NCBI RefSeq assembly: GCF_900113175.1
Contig: NZ_FOOK01000002.1
Location: forward strand, 51,983 to 115,982
Source of the DNA: Planifilum fulgidum
GTDB taxonomy: Bacteria > Bacillota > Bacilli > Thermoactinomycetales > DSM-44946
Length of the DNA stretch: 64,000 bases
Reading direction: 5' to 3'
The notes below the pieces were generated by a model. It was not told the DNA's origin. It did no database searches and was given only the letters and a program-made list of their open reading frames with translations. Position numbers and translations under genes: made by a program. Shown one piece after another: positions 28,034 to 60,646 of this stretch. Within the stretch, counting starts at the first letter, position 1. Each line of letters begins with the position of its first letter.

Positions 28034-28130
28034 GGGAGCGGATGGGGTGCTGGTGTCCCCCCCGGTCTTCAAAACCGAGCGGGAGGCGCGTCGCGTCTCC
28101 GGTGGGTTCGATTCCCACCCGTTCCCGCCA
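28034..28130 (+). tRNA. selC: tRNA-Sec (anticodon TCA)
   Basis: 97 nt including the encoded CCA. The acceptor stem has 8 bp (GGGAGCGG with CCGTTCCC, one G-U), as in bacterial tRNA-Sec. The anticodon TCA is at 28069-28071 in a CTTCAAA loop. A long variable arm (GGGAGGCGCGTCGCGTCTCC) precedes the T-arm GGTTCGATTCC. It is charged with serine, converted by SelA and delivered by SelB to UGA codons. Confidence 0.97.
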
Positions 28131-37231: not shown

Positions 37232-37516
37232 TCATCGGCCTCGTCCGTTTTGCCGAAACACCACCTGCTCAAGCCGCTCCACCCTACGGGCGAGGTCCCG
37301 AATCGCCGCGCTTTGTCCGGAATCTTCCGCGGTCATTCGCGACGATCCCCGCTGGGCTTTGCGGAGTTGCTCCTTCAGGCGCTCGTTTTCCTCGATCAAA
37401 TCCTCGTAATTTTTGATGACCAGATCCAGAAATTCGTTCACCTCATCGATATCGTACCCGCGAATGGCGTGCTTGAAATCCTTGTTGAAGATGTCCATCG
37501 GCGTCAGCCGCTTCAT
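37232..37516 (-). CDS. gpsB: Cell-division protein GpsB
   Basis: 94 aa. DivIVA-like N-terminal lipid/partner-binding motif LTPMDIFNKDFKHAIRGYD-type (about 4-22), then the VNEFLDLVIKNYEDL coiled coil and a short C-terminal coil, the length of GpsB rather than DivIVA. It shuttles penicillin-binding proteins between division site and side wall. ATG 37516 follows GGGGGAGGG. Confidence 0.94.
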   Translation of the reverse strand: MKRLTPMDIFNKDFKHAIRGYDIDEVNEFLDLVIKNYEDLIEENERLKEQLRKAQRGSSRMTAEDSGQSAAIRDLARRVERLEQVVFRQNGRGR

Positions 37517-51175: not shown

Positions 51176-52042
51176 GTGGACGGATTGCGGTCGAAGGCAT
51201 CCCGGCTGCGCGTGCAAGCGGTGAAGGGAGACAGCTTCCGCTACCGGCAGGATGCGCTGGTGGTGGAGGAGCCGATGGAGATTCGGCTGGTCTTTCCCCA
51301 GGCGAAAGAACCGATTCCCATCTCGGTCACCATGCGCACCCCCGGCAACGATTTCGAACTGGCGGCCGGCTTTCTCTTCACCGAAGGGATTGTGAAGACG
51401 CCGGAGGCGATACACAGGATCACCTACTGCACCGATCCCGATGCGGACGGCGAGCAGCGCTACAACATCGTCAACGTGTACCTTCGCCCGGAAACCCCCT
51501 TTGACCTCTCGCAGCTCAGGCGGCACTTTTACACCTCCTCCAGCTGCGGTATCTGCGGCAAGGCTTCCCTGGAGGCGATCCGCGTCCGAAATGTTCCCAA
51601 AATCCGCGCCGAGTGGTCGGTTCCCGCCTCCGTCATCCACGGGATGGGAGAACGCCTTCGGGCGGAACAGGATGTGTTTGAGAAGACGGGTGGACTCCAC
51701 GCCGCGGGGTGGTTTTCTCCCGAGGGGGAGCTGTTGGCGGTCCGGGAGGACGTGGGCAGGCACAACGCCGTGGACAAACTGCTGGGATACGCGTTCCTGG
51801 AGCGGAAATGCCCGCTTTCCGACGGGATCCTCATGGTGAGCGGCCGGGCCAGTTTCGAAATCATGCAGAAGGCGGCGGTGGCCGGCGTACCCATGGTGGT
51901 CGCCGTTTCCGCCCCCTCCAGCTTGGCCAGGGAAGTCGCCCGGGAATTCGGGATCACCCTGATCGGCTTCGCCCGCGACAACCGCTTCAACATCTACGCG
52001 GGCACGGAGCGGATCCGCATCCCTTCGTCTCCGGCCGGATGA
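51176..52042 (+). CDS. fdhD: Sulfur carrier/accessory protein FdhD
   Basis: 288 aa. The CGICG motif (TSSSCGICGKASLEAI, about 119-134) carries the sulfur-transfer cysteines. RTPGNDFELAAGFLFTEGI and the RHNAVDKLLGYAF segment are diagnostic. FdhD passes sulfur from a desulfurase to the Mo-bis-MGD cofactor of formate dehydrogenase. GTG 51176 is eight bases after GGAGG. The oxidoreductase gene it likely serves starts 43 bases downstream. Confidence 0.95.
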   Translation: MDGLRSKASRLRVQAVKGDSFRYRQDALVVEEPMEIRLVFPQAKEPIPISVTMRTPGNDFELAAGFLFTEGIVKTPEAIHRITYCTDPDADGEQRYNIVNVYLRPETPFDLSQLRRHFYTSSSCGICGKASLEAIRVRNVPKIRAEWSVPASVIHGMGERLRAEQDVFEKTGGLHAAGWFSPEGELLAVREDVGRHNAVDKLLGYAFLERKCPLSDGILMVSGRASFEIMQKAAVAGVPMVVAVSAPSSLAREVAREFGITLIGFARDNRFNIYAGTERIRIPSSPAG

Positions 52043-52085
52043 GCGACGCCCACGGCAAAAGGGCTGAACGGAGGTGCAACACGGA

Positions 52086-54365
52086 ATGGCCAAACGGTTT
52101 TCCCGAAAGTGGAATCCGAAAAGTTGGGTCAATCTCGTCCCCACCGGACTGGGCCAGGTGAAACCGCACCATTTCCGGGAAATGTTGCGGGCTGCCTGGG
52201 AAAACCGGGATCAGCCGGGATACGCCTGGCGGATCCTACGGGACGGATGTTGCGACGGTTGCGCTCTCGGCACCATGGGAATGAGGGACTGGACCCTTCC
52301 CGGCACCCACCTCTGCATGGTTCGCCTCAACCTTTTGCGGCTGAACACCATGCCGGCGATGGACCCCGCCCTGCTCGAGGACGTCTCCCGCCTCGGGGGA
52401 AAATCGGGACGGGAACTTAGAAGCCTGGGACGCCTTGCCTATCCGATGGTCCGCCGCAGGGGGGAAAAGGGGTTCCGCCGCATCACCTGGGATGAGGCGC
52501 TGGATCTGGCGGCGGAGCGAATCCGCCGGACCAAGCCGGAACGGATCGCCTTTTACCTCACCTCCCGGGGCCTGACCAACGAGGTTTATTTCGCCGCCAA
52601 CAAAGTGGCCCGTTTTCTGGGGACCAATCACATCGACAACGCCGCACGACTGTGTCACGCCCCCAGCACCGTCGCCCTGAAAAAGGCGATCGGCTACGGA
52701 GCGACGACCATTTCCTACTCCGACTGGATCGGAACCGATCTATTGATCCTCGTCGGCACCAATCTGGCCAACAATCAGCCCGTGGCCACCAAGTACATTT
52801 ATTACGCGAAAAAGGCTGGCACCCGGGTGATCGTGGTCAACCCCTACAAGGAGGAAGGACTGGAACGTTACTGGATTCCCTCGGTCACCGAAAGCGCCCT
52901 GTTCGGCACCCGGATCATGGATGAATTTTTCCAAATCGGCACCGGCGGAGACGCCGCCTTTTTCAACGGCGCGCTGAAACATCTCGTGGAAACGGGAAAA
53001 GTGAACGAGGAATTCATCCGCAACCATACCGCCGGCTTTGAAGAGGTGCGCCGCTTCGTGTCGGAGATCGGCTGGAAGGAGCTGGAGAAATCGGCGGGAA
53101 CCTCCCGGGAAGAAATGCGCCGCTTCGCCGAAATCTACGCCCGGGCGAACAGCTCCGTCATCGTCTGGAGCATGGGCGTCACCCAGCATCGAAACGGGAC
53201 CAACAACGTGCTGTCCATCGTCAATCTCGCCCTGGCCCTCGGGCGGATCGGCAAGCCCCATTCCGGCCTTTGCCCCATCCGCGGCCACTCCGGGGTGCAG
53301 GGAGGGGCCGAAATGGGAGCGGTCCCCGACAGTTACGGCATGGACCGTCCGGTGGATGAGGAGACGGCAAAGGCGATCGGGGAGCTGTGGGGTTTTCCCG
53401 TTCCCGACCGGCCGGGAATGAAAGCGTCCAGTATGATCCAGGCGGCCCATGACGGAAAGTTGGACGTCCTCTACTCCATCGGCGGCAACTTTCTGGAGAC
53501 CCTTCCCGATCCGGACTTCGTTCGCGAAGCGATCGCCCGCGTGCCCCTCCGCATCCACCAGGACATCGTCTTAAATCCGCAGATGCTGGTGGAACCCCGG
53601 GATCCGCAAGGGACGGTCCTCCTGCTTCCCGGGAGAACCCGATACGAAACGCCGGGAGGCGTCACGGAGACCACCACCGAACGGCGGGTGATCTTCAGCC
53701 CGGAAATCCCCGGTCCCCGCATCGGCGAAACCCGGCCGGAATGGGAAATTCCCGTGCAGATCGCCGAGCGGGTCCATCCCGACCGGGCGCACCTGATCCA
53801 TTACGACGGCACCGCACAAATCCGGGAAGACATCAGCCGGATCATTCCGGCCTACGACGGCATTCAACACCTCAAGAAAAAGGGGGACAACTTCCAGTGG
53901 GGAGGTCCCCGGCTCTGCGAAGGCTACAAATTCAACACGCCGGACGGCCGGGCCCGCTTCCACATCGCCCGATTGCCGGAGGACTCCCTCCCGGAAGGCC
54001 GCTTCATCCTCAGCACGCGGCGCGGCAAACAATTCAACAGCATCGTGTGGGGGGAACGCGATCCCCTGACGGGCGCCGGGCGCGACGAGGTCTTCATCTC
54101 CCGGCAGGATGCAAAGCGGCTGGGCCTGGAAGAAGGGGACCCGATCCTGCTCCGTTCCGAGTCCGGAGAATACCGGGGCCGGGTCAAAATCGCCCGCATC
54201 CGCCCCGGAAACCTGCAGGTTCATTGGCCTGAGGGAAATGTGCTCATCCCCTATCGGCGGTTCGATCCCGACAGCGGCGAACCGGACTACAACGCCGTGG
54301 TGGAGGCGATCCCCCTGAATGGCCGAGAAACCGGGTCCGAAACCGCCTCGGCGGGGGAAGGCTGA
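52086..54365 (+). CDS. Formate dehydrogenase-like molybdopterin oxidoreductase (FdhF/YdeP type), Cys form
   Basis: 759 aa. An N-terminal cysteine cluster ([10 protein letters not shown], about 53-62, and a Cys near 80) may hold an Fe-S cluster. The Mo/bis-MGD domains include [16 protein letters not shown], and the active-site ligand is Cys in [18 protein letters not shown] (about 197), where Sec-containing formate dehydrogenases have UGA. The C-terminal part ([27 protein letters not shown]) fits a TIGR01701-like alpha-subunit. No partner subunit follows. Substrate unproven; fdhD linkage supports formate-type chemistry. Confidence 0.88.
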
Positions 54366-57351: not shown

Positions 57352-58143
57352 TCACCGCCGGACCACCCCCGACATCTCTCCGCGGATGATTTCCAGCAAT
57401 CCCTCCGCCATCAGCTGGTAACCCCGATCGTTGGGATGGATTTCATCGGCCAACCAGTTGCGGTCATCGGGGAGCAGGCGGCGATCCACATCGATCACCG
57501 TCGTGGCGGGATAGTCGCGGGCCACCTCCTTCATCCCTTGGTTCCATTGAATGATCCGTTTCCGGACGACCGAAAAATAGGGTTCCTCCGGACCCAGGGG
57601 ATTGTAAAGGGAGGTGATCAACACCGGGGCGCGGGGATTGCACGCCCGGATCTTTTCCAGGATGGCCCGCAGGTTATTCAGATACCGGTTTTGGATGTGC
57701 CGAAACTCCATCAGGGCATCGACGGGATTGCCGCGAAGGAGCAATTCCTTCAGGAGATCGTTTCCGCCGATGGTAATGGAAATCAGGTCCGACTCCCGAA
57801 CTTTTGCCAAGAGATCGCGATTGTCCAGGGATCGCAGCAGTTGGTCCGACGTCTGTCCCGAAACGGCCCGGTTGTCCAAGTGGACATCGATCCCTTCCCC
57901 TTTGAGATATTCCGCAACCCAGTAACCGTAGCCCGCCTCCTTCACCGATCCCTTTCCCAGGGCGACCGAATCGCCGAGGACCAGATAATCCAACCTGCCT
58001 TCCTCGGCCGCGATCTTTCTTAGCTCCCGAAGAAATCCCCCCTCCCGGGGGATGTCTGCGGGTTTCGACGGACCCAACAGTGCCCACAGGCCGGCGAAAC
58101 CCGTCGCCAACAGCACTGCCCCGATCGCCATCACCCTGCGCAT
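57352..58143 (-). CDS. GDSL-family lipase/esterase with N-terminal membrane anchor
   Basis: 263 aa. An N-terminal hydrophobic segment (about 4-24) acts as signal peptide or anchor. The SGNH blocks are LVLGDSVALGKG (Ser about 58), SGQTSDQLL (Gly), ISITIGGNDLLKE (Asn) and DEIHPNDRGYQLMA (Asp and His). It hydrolyses ester bonds outside the membrane; many Bacillus relatives are YpmR-like. ATG 58143 gives a basic MRR start. Confidence 0.88.
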   Translation of the reverse strand: MRRVMAIGAVLLATGFAGLWALLGPSKPADIPREGGFLRELRKIAAEEGRLDYLVLGDSVALGKGSVKEAGYGYWVAEYLKGEGIDVHLDNRAVSGQTSDQLLRSLDNRDLLAKVRESDLISITIGGNDLLKELLLRGNPVDALMEFRHIQNRYLNNLRAILEKIRACNPRAPVLITSLYNPLGPEEPYFSVVRKRIIQWNQGMKEVARDYPATTVIDVDRRLLPDDRNWLADEIHPNDRGYQLMAEGLLEIIRGEMSGVVRR

Positions 58144-58267
58144 GTTCACGACACTCACCCCAATGGTTTTAACCGTTCCTCATCCTTATCGTACCGAACC
58201 TGTATTACACCTCTATTTTGTTAAGATTACAGTTGTTTATTCCTTTTAATGGAAAAAATAACATAAT

Positions 58268-58297
58268 AAAAAAAGACGCGCCATCACGCGTCTTTCG
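58268..58297 (-). terminator. Terminator of rnpB
   Basis: AAAGACGCG pairs with CGCGTCTTT around a CATCAC-type loop; on the minus strand a run of seven T follows. It lies directly after the RNase P RNA 3' end. Confidence 0.85.
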
Positions 58298-58307
58298 GCA
58301 AGCTCGT

Positions 58308-58740
58308 GAGGAAAGCAAACCATAAGCCGAGTTCTGTGCTCCGGGTGGTGTTGCGGCGGCTTGCCCCGCCTCCCACCCCTTGGAGTGGCAACCATCTATC
58401 TAGGCCGTGCATTGCTGCACGGCTCCAGCGACCTACCCGGGATCGCTGCGGGCCACAGCTGCACGTCCGAAGACGTGCTGATCCCCTACTAGGTCTTGCT
58501 CCGGGTGGGGTTTACCTAGCCAGCATGTCTCCATGCTGCTGGTGCGCTCTTACCGCACCGTTGCACCCTTGCCTGTGAAGCGCCCGCCGGGCGCTTCCAT
58601 CGGCGGTCTGCATTTCTGTGGCACTAGCCTTGGGGTCGCCCCCACCGGCCGTTAGCCGGCACCCTGCCCTGTGGAGCTCGGACTTTCCTCCCGTGGGGCC
58701 TTGCGGCACTCCACCGGCGGTTGCCTGGCTTACTTTCCTC
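58308..58740 (-). ncRNA. rnpB: RNase P RNA (A-type architecture)
   Basis: About 433 nt. Ends are set by P1: 5' GAGGAAAGTAAGCC pairs with 3' GGTTTGCTTTCCTC. Conserved core seen on the minus strand: GAGGAAAGTCCGAGCTCC, AGGGCAGGGTGCCGGCTAAC, AAGGGTG...GGTGCGGTAAGAGCGCACC, CCACCCGGAGCAAG, then CCTAGATAGATGG and ACAGAACTCGGCTTA. The CAGGGTGC/GGTAA core, P15-P17 hairpins and ACAGAA-C-GGCTTA 3' end follow the E. coli (A) form and not the Bacillus (B) form, which ends differently and has P5.1/P10.1/P15.1. Confidence 0.95.
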
Positions 58741-58748
58741 ATCCACGG

Positions 58749-58778
58749 ATTATACATTCTAACAAAGCTTGAGGTCAA
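58749..58778 (-). promoter_or_regulatory. Promoter of rnpB
   Basis: On the minus strand: TTGACC, an 18-base spacer, TATAAT. The expected +1 falls about seven bases after the -10, matching the 5' end of the RNA drawn from P1. Confidence 0.85.
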
Positions 58779-58805: not shown

Positions 58806-59915
58806 TCAAAGGAACTGGAAGGGATCGCGGTGTACGTTCGTCGGAACGACCTTCATCCCCGGAGGAGCCCACTTTTCCCGCAGAATTTGGCAAACCCGCT
58901 CCAGGACCAGACGCTCCACATGATGGCCCGGATCGATCAGCGCAAGGCCGGCGGCCAAGGCATCCAGGGCCGTATGGTAGTCGATATCGCCGGTGATGAA
59001 AACATCCGCCCCGCGCTCCAAGGCCGTCCGGGCGTAGCGGCCGCCCGAGCCGCCCAAAACCGCCACGGTGGATACCGGGCGATCCGGATCTCCGACCAGG
59101 CGAAGGGCGGGGATTCCGTAGGCCTGCTTCACCCTTTCGGCCAGGTCTTTCAGGCGGGTTTTTTCCGGCAACCGCCCGATCCGCCCCAGCCCGAAGGATC
59201 GGCCGGGAAGGTCCAGGGGATAGATGTCGTAGGCCACTTCTTCATAGGGGTGCGCTTCCAGCATGGCTTGCACCACCCGGGCCTGAGCCGACTCGGGAAC
59301 GATCGTCTCCAGCCGCACTTCCTCCACCTGCTCCAGCTTTCCCTGCTGCCCGATGTAGGGATTCGTTCCCTCGCGGGGAAGAAACGTGCCCGTCCCCCGG
59401 GAATTGAAGGTGCAGTGGCTGTAGTTGCCGATCCATCCCGCCCCCGCTTCGCACATGGCATTCAAAACGTTCATGTGGTGATCCTCGGGGACAAACACGA
59501 CGATCTTTTTCAACCGCTCCCGGAAATGGGGAGCCAGCACTTCCGCGTTTTCCAGCCCCAGCTTTTCCGCCAGGACGTCGTTGACCCCCCCGGCCGCGGT
59601 GTCCAGATTGGTGTGGGCCACATACACATTGATGCCGTTTTTCAACAATTTCGCCGCCAACCGACCCGCCGGCCGGTCCCCGCGCAAATGGTGAAGGGGA
59701 CGATAGATCAACGCATGATGGCTGACGATCCAGTTGGCCCCGAGGCGCAAGGCTTCGTCAACCACTTCCTCCGTCACGTCCAGCGTGACCAAGACTCCGG
59801 TCACTTCCGCCCCGGGATCCCCCACCTGAAGGCCGATCGGATCCCTTTCCACCGCCAGGGACGGAGGCGCCCATTCCTCCAGGGCGCGGATCAGGGATTC
59901 TCCTCGCACAGCCAC
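58806..59915 (-). CDS. yqfO: Nif3-like dinuclear metal centre protein (YqfO)
   Basis: 369 aa, the long Bacillus-type form with a PII-like insert. Metal ligands are seen as SHHALIYRPLHHL (about 65-77), AHTNLDTAAGGVND and, near the end, GDIDYHTALDA and DPGHHVERL. The insert (about 130-235) begins VVFVPEDHHMNVLNAM. It is often annotated as GTP cyclohydrolase I type 2, but the real function is not settled. GTG 59915 follows GGAGG at eight bases and overlaps trmK by 25 bases. trmK-yqfO is a standard Bacillales pair. Confidence 0.92.
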   Translation of the reverse strand: MAVRGESLIRALEEWAPPSLAVERDPIGLQVGDPGAEVTGVLVTLDVTEEVVDEALRLGANWIVSHHALIYRPLHHLRGDRPAGRLAAKLLKNGINVYVAHTNLDTAAGGVNDVLAEKLGLENAEVLAPHFRERLKKIVVFVPEDHHMNVLNAMCEAGAGWIGNYSHCTFNSRGTGTFLPREGTNPYIGQQGKLEQVEEVRLETIVPESAQARVVQAMLEAHPYEEVAYDIYPLDLPGRSFGLGRIGRLPEKTRLKDLAERVKQAYGIPALRLVGDPDRPVSTVAVLGGSGGRYARTALERGADVFITGDIDYHTALDALAAGLALIDPGHHVERLVLERVCQILREKWAPPGMKVVPTNVHRDPFQFL

Positions 59916-60646
59916 TTCCTCAACCTCCTCCATTGGGCGATTTCTTCCTCCAGCTGCGCCGCCCGCCGGGCCGCCTCCTCCGTCCGGCCGGCCCGGACCC
60001 GCTCGAGGATTCGTTCGCGGGCGGCCAGTTCCTGAAGCCATTTTTTGATCAGCAAGGGATGTTTTTCCCTCCAGAGGAGGGGACCGAGCAGGAGCAATTG
60101 CTCCTCCGATGCGGGCGGCTGCCGGTACAACGCTTCGTCCTCTCCCCGCTCCGCGGCGATGATTTCATACAGGGTTCCCCCTTCTTCCACGAGGGTCTCC
60201 CCCACGGGCGCCCACCCGTTTTGTCTGAGCCACCGCCGCACCCGCTCCCCTCCGGTGTTGGGTTGAAGAACGAGCCGAAAGGCGCCGGACAGCTTCTCCC
60301 TGCCCTGATCCAGAATCTTCGCGATGAGGGGGCCGCCCATCCCGGCGATGACGATCACATCCGCTTCGCCCTCTTTCAGGACGGAAAGCCCGTCTCCCCG
60401 GCGCACCTCGATCCGGTCCGAAAGACCCCAGCGCCGGACCTGTGATCGGGCGTTTTCGAAGGGACCTTTGTTCAATTCCCCGGCAATTCCTTTCTCAATC
60501 CGCTTCCGGAGAACCAAATGGATCAGGAGATGGGCGTGATCCGCCCCGATATCCGCCACGGTCGTCCCCGCGGGAACCCAACGGGCGACGGCCTGGAGCC
60601 GCTCGGAGCATTTCACATCCCTTGAAGGGGACGGACTAAGGGACAA
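59891..60646 (-). CDS. trmK: tRNA (adenine22-N1)-methyltransferase TrmK
   Basis: 251 aa. RLQAVARWVPAGTTVADIGADHAHL holds motif I. DVIVIAGMGGPLIAKIL, LVLQPNTGGERVRRWL and the C-terminal coiled coil (about 200-245) match TrmK. It methylates A22 of tRNA-Ser/Tyr type tRNAs. The TTG at 60646 is supported by GGGAGGG seven bases upstream; a GTG 30 bases later (VKCSERLQ) would resemble the shorter B. subtilis start. Co-translated with yqfO. Confidence 0.93.
   Translation of the reverse strand: MSLSPSPSRDVKCSERLQAVARWVPAGTTVADIGADHAHLLIHLVLRKRIEKGIAGELNKGPFENARSQVRRWGLSDRIEVRRGDGLSVLKEGEADVIVIAGMGGPLIAKILDQGREKLSGAFRLVLQPNTGGERVRRWLRQNGWAPVGETLVEEGGTLYEIIAAERGEDEALYRQPPASEEQLLLLGPLLWREKHPLLIKKWLQELAARERILERVRAGRTEEAARRAAQLEEEIAQWRRLRKWLCEENP

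Follow-up and report, generated by a model that had tools for sequence, protein, structure and literature searches.

A type A RNase P RNA gene at the trmK-yqfO site in Planifilum fulgidum, and the distribution of type A and type B RNAs among Bacilli

The window analysed here is the whole 64,000-nucleotide stretch taken from the genome of Planifilum fulgidum, a member of the order Thermoactinomycetales. On its minus strand lies a gene for the RNA subunit of RNase P (rnpB), flanked by protein-coding genes on the same strand. In the direction of transcription, the locus is composed as follows:

59891..60646, minus strand: trmK, named from the initial annotation and the gene position, with no NCBIfam match; the majority of the other type A loci have homologues adjoining yqfO-rnpB
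58806..59912, minus strand: yqfO/nif3-like gene directly upstream of rnpB (TIGR00486, 212.5 bits)
58749..58778, minus strand: predicted sigma-A-type rnpB promoter (TTGACC-18 nt-TATAAT), 11/12 consensus positions, 0.3 such sites expected in shuffles
58306..58740, minus strand: rnpB, class A RNase P RNA, the sole rnpB in the genome (Rfam bounds 58308-58736; P1 reaches about 58740)
58271..58296, minus strand: predicted intrinsic terminator of rnpB, with an 11-pair stem, a loop of 4 and then a T-rich tail
57352..58158, minus strand: SGNH/GDSL-like lipase/hydrolase gene downstream of rnpB, assigned from its sequence character and a weak NCBIfam match only

Elsewhere in the window, the left edge carries a CRISPR direct repeat (66-95, RF01315), and further along are a selenocysteine tRNA (28034-28126) and genes for FdhD and an FdhF/YdeP-type oxidoreductase (51176-54365).

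The cmscan search assigns positions 58308-58736 of the minus strand to class A RNase P RNA with 284.4 bits (RF00010, E 1.6e-93), and the match covers the full length of the model (positions 1-367). This score far exceeds the RF00010 gathering threshold of 100 and stands above class B as well. Across the whole assembly from which the window derives (G000; 62 contigs, 99.99% complete), RF00011, which describes the class B architecture with P5.1, P10.1 and P15.1, yields zero matches at E<=10. The genome-wide search likewise uncovered no second rnpB, as there is a single real RF00010 match and the runner-up reaches 10 bits. The initial annotation had called this RNA A-type, a call that a better class B score or a type B gene elsewhere in the genome would have spoken against. 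Since there is neither an RF00011 match nor a second rnpB, neither objection arises, and class A is far ahead in the direct comparison.

The same annotation had described the promoter and terminator as intact and the gene as apparently the working copy, and both descriptions hold up well. Given a promoter that ends at 58749 and a terminator stem at 58296-58271, the rnpB transcript is expected to run from about 58740 to the terminator. Transcription would begin from the gene's own promoter and stop at its own terminator, and the product would fold as a class A RNase P RNA. With a single rnpB whose promoter, terminator and fold are all in place, the sequence points to a functional gene. One RnpA gene is present in the same genome (G000:C5:9956-10276, PF00825 112.2 bits). 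We infer that rnpB is expressed and that its RNA is catalytically active, such that the RNA together with RnpA would remove the 5' leader from tRNA precursors.

The fold was evaluated with 27 rnpB sequences of the order, using the Rfam class A structure supplemented with P4, the extra hairpin of the P16-P17 region and P19. The main elements in the window RNA are located as follows:

58677..58685, minus strand: 5' strand of P4 (CR-I, AAG(U)CCGAG), partner 58324-58331
58439..58485, minus strand: P16 and P17, hallmarks of type A, with an extra hairpin between them
58480-58485 with 58439-58444, minus strand: P16, compensatory changes in 4/6 pairs
58461..58478, minus strand: extra hairpin in the P16-P17 interval, 7/7 pairs with compensatory changes in the order
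58455-58459 with 58445-58449, minus strand: P17, 98.5% of cells paired, stem nearly invariant
58404..58423, minus strand: P18, compensatory changes in 7/8 pairs
58339..58386, minus strand: P19-like helix between the 3' strands of P2 and P4 (CUCC/GGAG and GGGUGG/CCACCC)
58324..58331, minus strand: 3' strand of P4 (CR-V, CUCGGCUU), partner the CR-I strand at 58677-58685

Among these 27 sequences, 92.1% of pair cells are paired in the type A structure, versus 34-42% when the partners are slid. Changes on both sides occur in 46 pairs, whereas shuffles give 23 such pairs and the slid versions no more than 18. Compensatory changes back P1, P2, P5, P16 and P18, and the support is strong for P16, P18 and the extra hairpin. 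The P4 helix formed by CR-I and CR-V has 8/8 pairs in 27/27 sequences, and seven of the eight pairs are invariant. Both stems of the P19-like helix are paired in 90-100% of cells and its distal part is unconserved. The extra hairpin is missing from two loci (L013 and L016). The elements of the P6 pseudoknot, a GG in J5/7 and a GCC in L17, are both nearly invariant and can pair, without covariation. Compared with RF00010 and E. coli M1 RNA, the window RNA shares the core, P4, the P16-P17 arm, P18 and a full-length model match, but adds the P19-like helix and the P16-P17 hairpin, both of which are in parts that vary within the class. With class B RNAs (RF00011; Bacillus subtilis) it has in common the CR-I and CR-V motifs of the catalytic core and the reaction performed; RF00011 itself matches nothing in its genome at E<=10.

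Type A is normal throughout the order, and the window gene itself is ordinary in this respect. We sampled 42 Thermoactinomycetales genomes from six families, 40 of them of good quality. The class A cut-off was exceeded by 41 of the 42, among them all 40 good-quality genomes; the one that fell short is only 68% complete. No genome of the 42 exceeded the class B cut-off. The named genomes of the order that a pattern scan picked up include Thermoactinomyces, Laceyella, Melghirimyces, Marininema, Hazenella and Thermoflavimicrobium. Type A rnpB is 74-96% identical within most of the order and 67-74% identical to that of Alicyclobacillaceae. Among 399 genomes of class Bacilli, 135 scored above the cut-off for class A and 263 above that for class B. 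Of 149 genomes sampled across the phylum, 129 carry type A under strict filters. The textbook expectation of type B RNA in Bacillales-like genomes, against which the initial annotation had set this gene, is therefore correct for part of class Bacilli and incorrect for this order and for many other Bacilli families. In the literature, class A is described as ancestral (PMC2996960). Two fragmentary genes also appeared in these surveys. The partial rnpB of genome G369 reflects a contig end, and locus L206 (1501-1772; G353:C125:41058-41329) holds a class A rnpB reduced to its 3' part, adjoining a tyrosine recombinase-like open frame, with the 5' part not found in genome G353.

One could suppose that the window rnpB represents a second copy or a remnant, the working gene being a type B one missing from the assembly, given that genomes with both types do occur in Tumebacillus. 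However, this would require class B to have escaped detection at E<=10 in a 99.99%-complete assembly, and it is at odds with a class B cut-off passed by none of the 42 genomes of the order and with the intact promoter, terminator and fold. We regard this explanation as highly improbable.

The position of the gene is conserved far beyond the order. When the window's neighbour genes were compared by tblastn with all rnpB loci, a yqfO homologue was found to adjoin type A rnpB in families f1-f6, f9, f11, f12, f13, f18, f24, f26, f35, f39 and f56, and trmK is the rnpB neighbour in the type A locus of f50. By genus, the yqfO neighbour is common to the window and to the type A genes of Thermoactinomyces, Laceyella, Melghirimyces, Alicyclobacillus and Tumebacillus. 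Homologues of the SGNH/GDSL-like gene occupy the same rnpB-flanking place in families f1-f4 and in locus L170. In contrast, class B copies of Bacilli lie in the order gpsB-rnpB-rlmL, in rRNA-tRNA clusters or at other sites, and none of those tested lies at trmK-yqfO. In 11 families of the core Bacillales type, type B adjoins an rlmL-like gene, with gpsB on the other side in 10/11; the gpsB-like gene of the window (37256-37510) has no rnpB beside it. Conversion of A to B in place at the yqfO site was considered and rejected, because yqfO stood beside type B rnpB in none of the type B loci tested by tblastn.

The initial annotation had offered either lineage-specific retention of type A or horizontal replacement of an essential ribozyme. 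In the RpoB tree, the Thermoactinomycetales form a single, all-A clade (SH-aLRT 98). The rnpB tree with related species groups the window RNA with family f4 and its own genus, within the order and with no foreign placement, although by itself this tree fails to unite the order in a single clade (two changes, weakly supported). The nearest RNAs to the window rnpB come from its own family and order. Horizontal transfer of a type A gene into this lineage in place of an original type B gene might be entertained, since many Bacillales have type B and several changes between A and B are needed on the RpoB tree within Bacilli. Nevertheless, the order-wide presence of type A, its frequency in the phylum, a trmK-yqfO-rnpB position that is the same in most other type A families and the affinity of the RNA to its own family and order leave this proposal with a very small probability. 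On the combined strength of synteny, the RNA tree and the all-A RpoB clade, we reject horizontal replacement. Retention is the part of the original alternative that survives; it is not lineage-specific, as the whole order and many Bacilli families have type A.

We therefore conclude that type A in the window is the ancestral ribozyme, retained by vertical descent. The class of the RNA, its single-copy status, the conservation of its fold and position and its presence throughout the order were all computed directly, and the window rnpB is almost certainly a single, working, vertically inherited type A gene at the ancestral trmK-yqfO-rnpB site. According to this vertical history, the gene would have been passed down at that site, and the type B RNAs of other Bacilli would be derived and located at different sites.

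On an RpoB tree built from 61 genomes, six changes of the type A label are required, and well-supported branches force four or more of them. Type B appears in separate places, namely the core Bacillales; f25/f27/f17/f32; f7/f30; f23; f38; and f33/f19/f39. Within Bacilli, type B has repeatedly taken the place of type A, and has done so from differing locations in the genome. As a candidate vehicle, carriage by plasmid or phage was examined. Partial matches at 60-80% identity were found in four plasmid and three phage records, of which three of the four plasmids are very large, at 0.76-2.9 Mb, and none of the phage records is annotated. Because these matches are few and partial, simple mobile carriage of type B is unsupported. 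Separately, two or three class B rnpB genes per genome were observed in families f27, f32 and f57 (loci L325/L335 in G203, L128/L135 in G134, L131/L136 in G074, L123/L137/L144 in G180, L328/L336 in G199 and L109/L134 in G355), and some extra copies (G203_f27a, G134_f27b) group with RNAs of another family.

In many lineages outside the core Bacillales, type B is found in or beside clusters of stable RNA genes. In Tumebacillus, f38 and f19, rRNA and tRNA genes of the same strand surround type B or immediately precede it; locus L322, for instance, reads 23S, three tRNAs, type B rnpB and eleven tRNAs, and L316 reads 23S, 5S and type B rnpB. Same-strand tRNA genes are also close to type B, at about 200 bases or less, in f7, f17, f23, f25, f30 and one f32 copy. 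No tRNA was detected within 1.5 kb of type A at any of 40 loci checked. Outside the core Bacillales, class B genes in or beside rRNA-tRNA clusters were seen at L149 (8085-8674), L152 (16886-18551), L316, L319, L322, L324, L327, L129 and L332. The two Tumebacillus type B loci scanned yielded no terminator on the gene's strand, and the L121 type B locus has one weak promoter-like site, located 5' of the adjacent tRNA and not directly before rnpB. These positions suggest that type B may be co-transcribed with tRNAs, in which case the ribozyme would be made together with its own substrates.

Tumebacillus (family f39) differs from the window genome in having a class B gene in addition to class A. 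Of the seven Tumebacillus genomes, six exceed both cut-offs at separate loci, and two of these six are assembled into one contig: L072/L127 (G181), L089/L124 (G141), L074/L125 (G191), L090/L121 (G161), L081/L130 (G210, T. avium, NZ_CP021434.1) and L088/L122 (G151, T. permanentifrigoris). The seventh (G171; L151/L126), a 110-contig assembly, shows class B only, even with lax filters, which could reflect either class A loss or an assembly gap. Exactly one rnpA match is present in six of the seven genomes, with zero in G161 (95% complete). The type A copies are at trmK-yqfO by tblastn, and promoter- and terminator-like sites accompany both copies tested (n=2). Within the genus, the type B fold has 93% of pair cells paired and 21 compensated pairs, rising to 38 when four relatives are added, and the type A fold has 90% and 6 compensated pairs. 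In the type B RNA tree, Tumebacillus groups with f33, matching RpoB. The class A copy of G141 (L089) lacks the P19 arm of its relatives, perhaps as a start of decay. Among openly available papers we found no account of RNase P in Tumebacillus or of a genome with both classes, which is weak evidence of novelty.

The presence of both RNAs in six of seven Tumebacillus genomes, with type B in or beside rRNA-tRNA clusters as in several other families where it is the sole type, suggests stepwise displacement via coexistence. On balance, we favour a history in which type A at trmK-yqfO was ancestral in Bacilli and extra type B genes repeatedly displaced it, with Tumebacillus as an intermediate. This displacement history would also encompass arrival of type B elsewhere in the genome rather than remodelling in place, possible co-transcription with tRNAs and the use of one RnpA for both RNAs. 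The window gene anchors the ancestral RNase P RNA site of Bacilli. With this anchor, the swap of architectures can be traced from type A at trmK-yqfO to type B at other sites, with Tumebacillus holding the two together, and the exchange of an essential ribozyme becomes a directly testable question in culturable bacteria.
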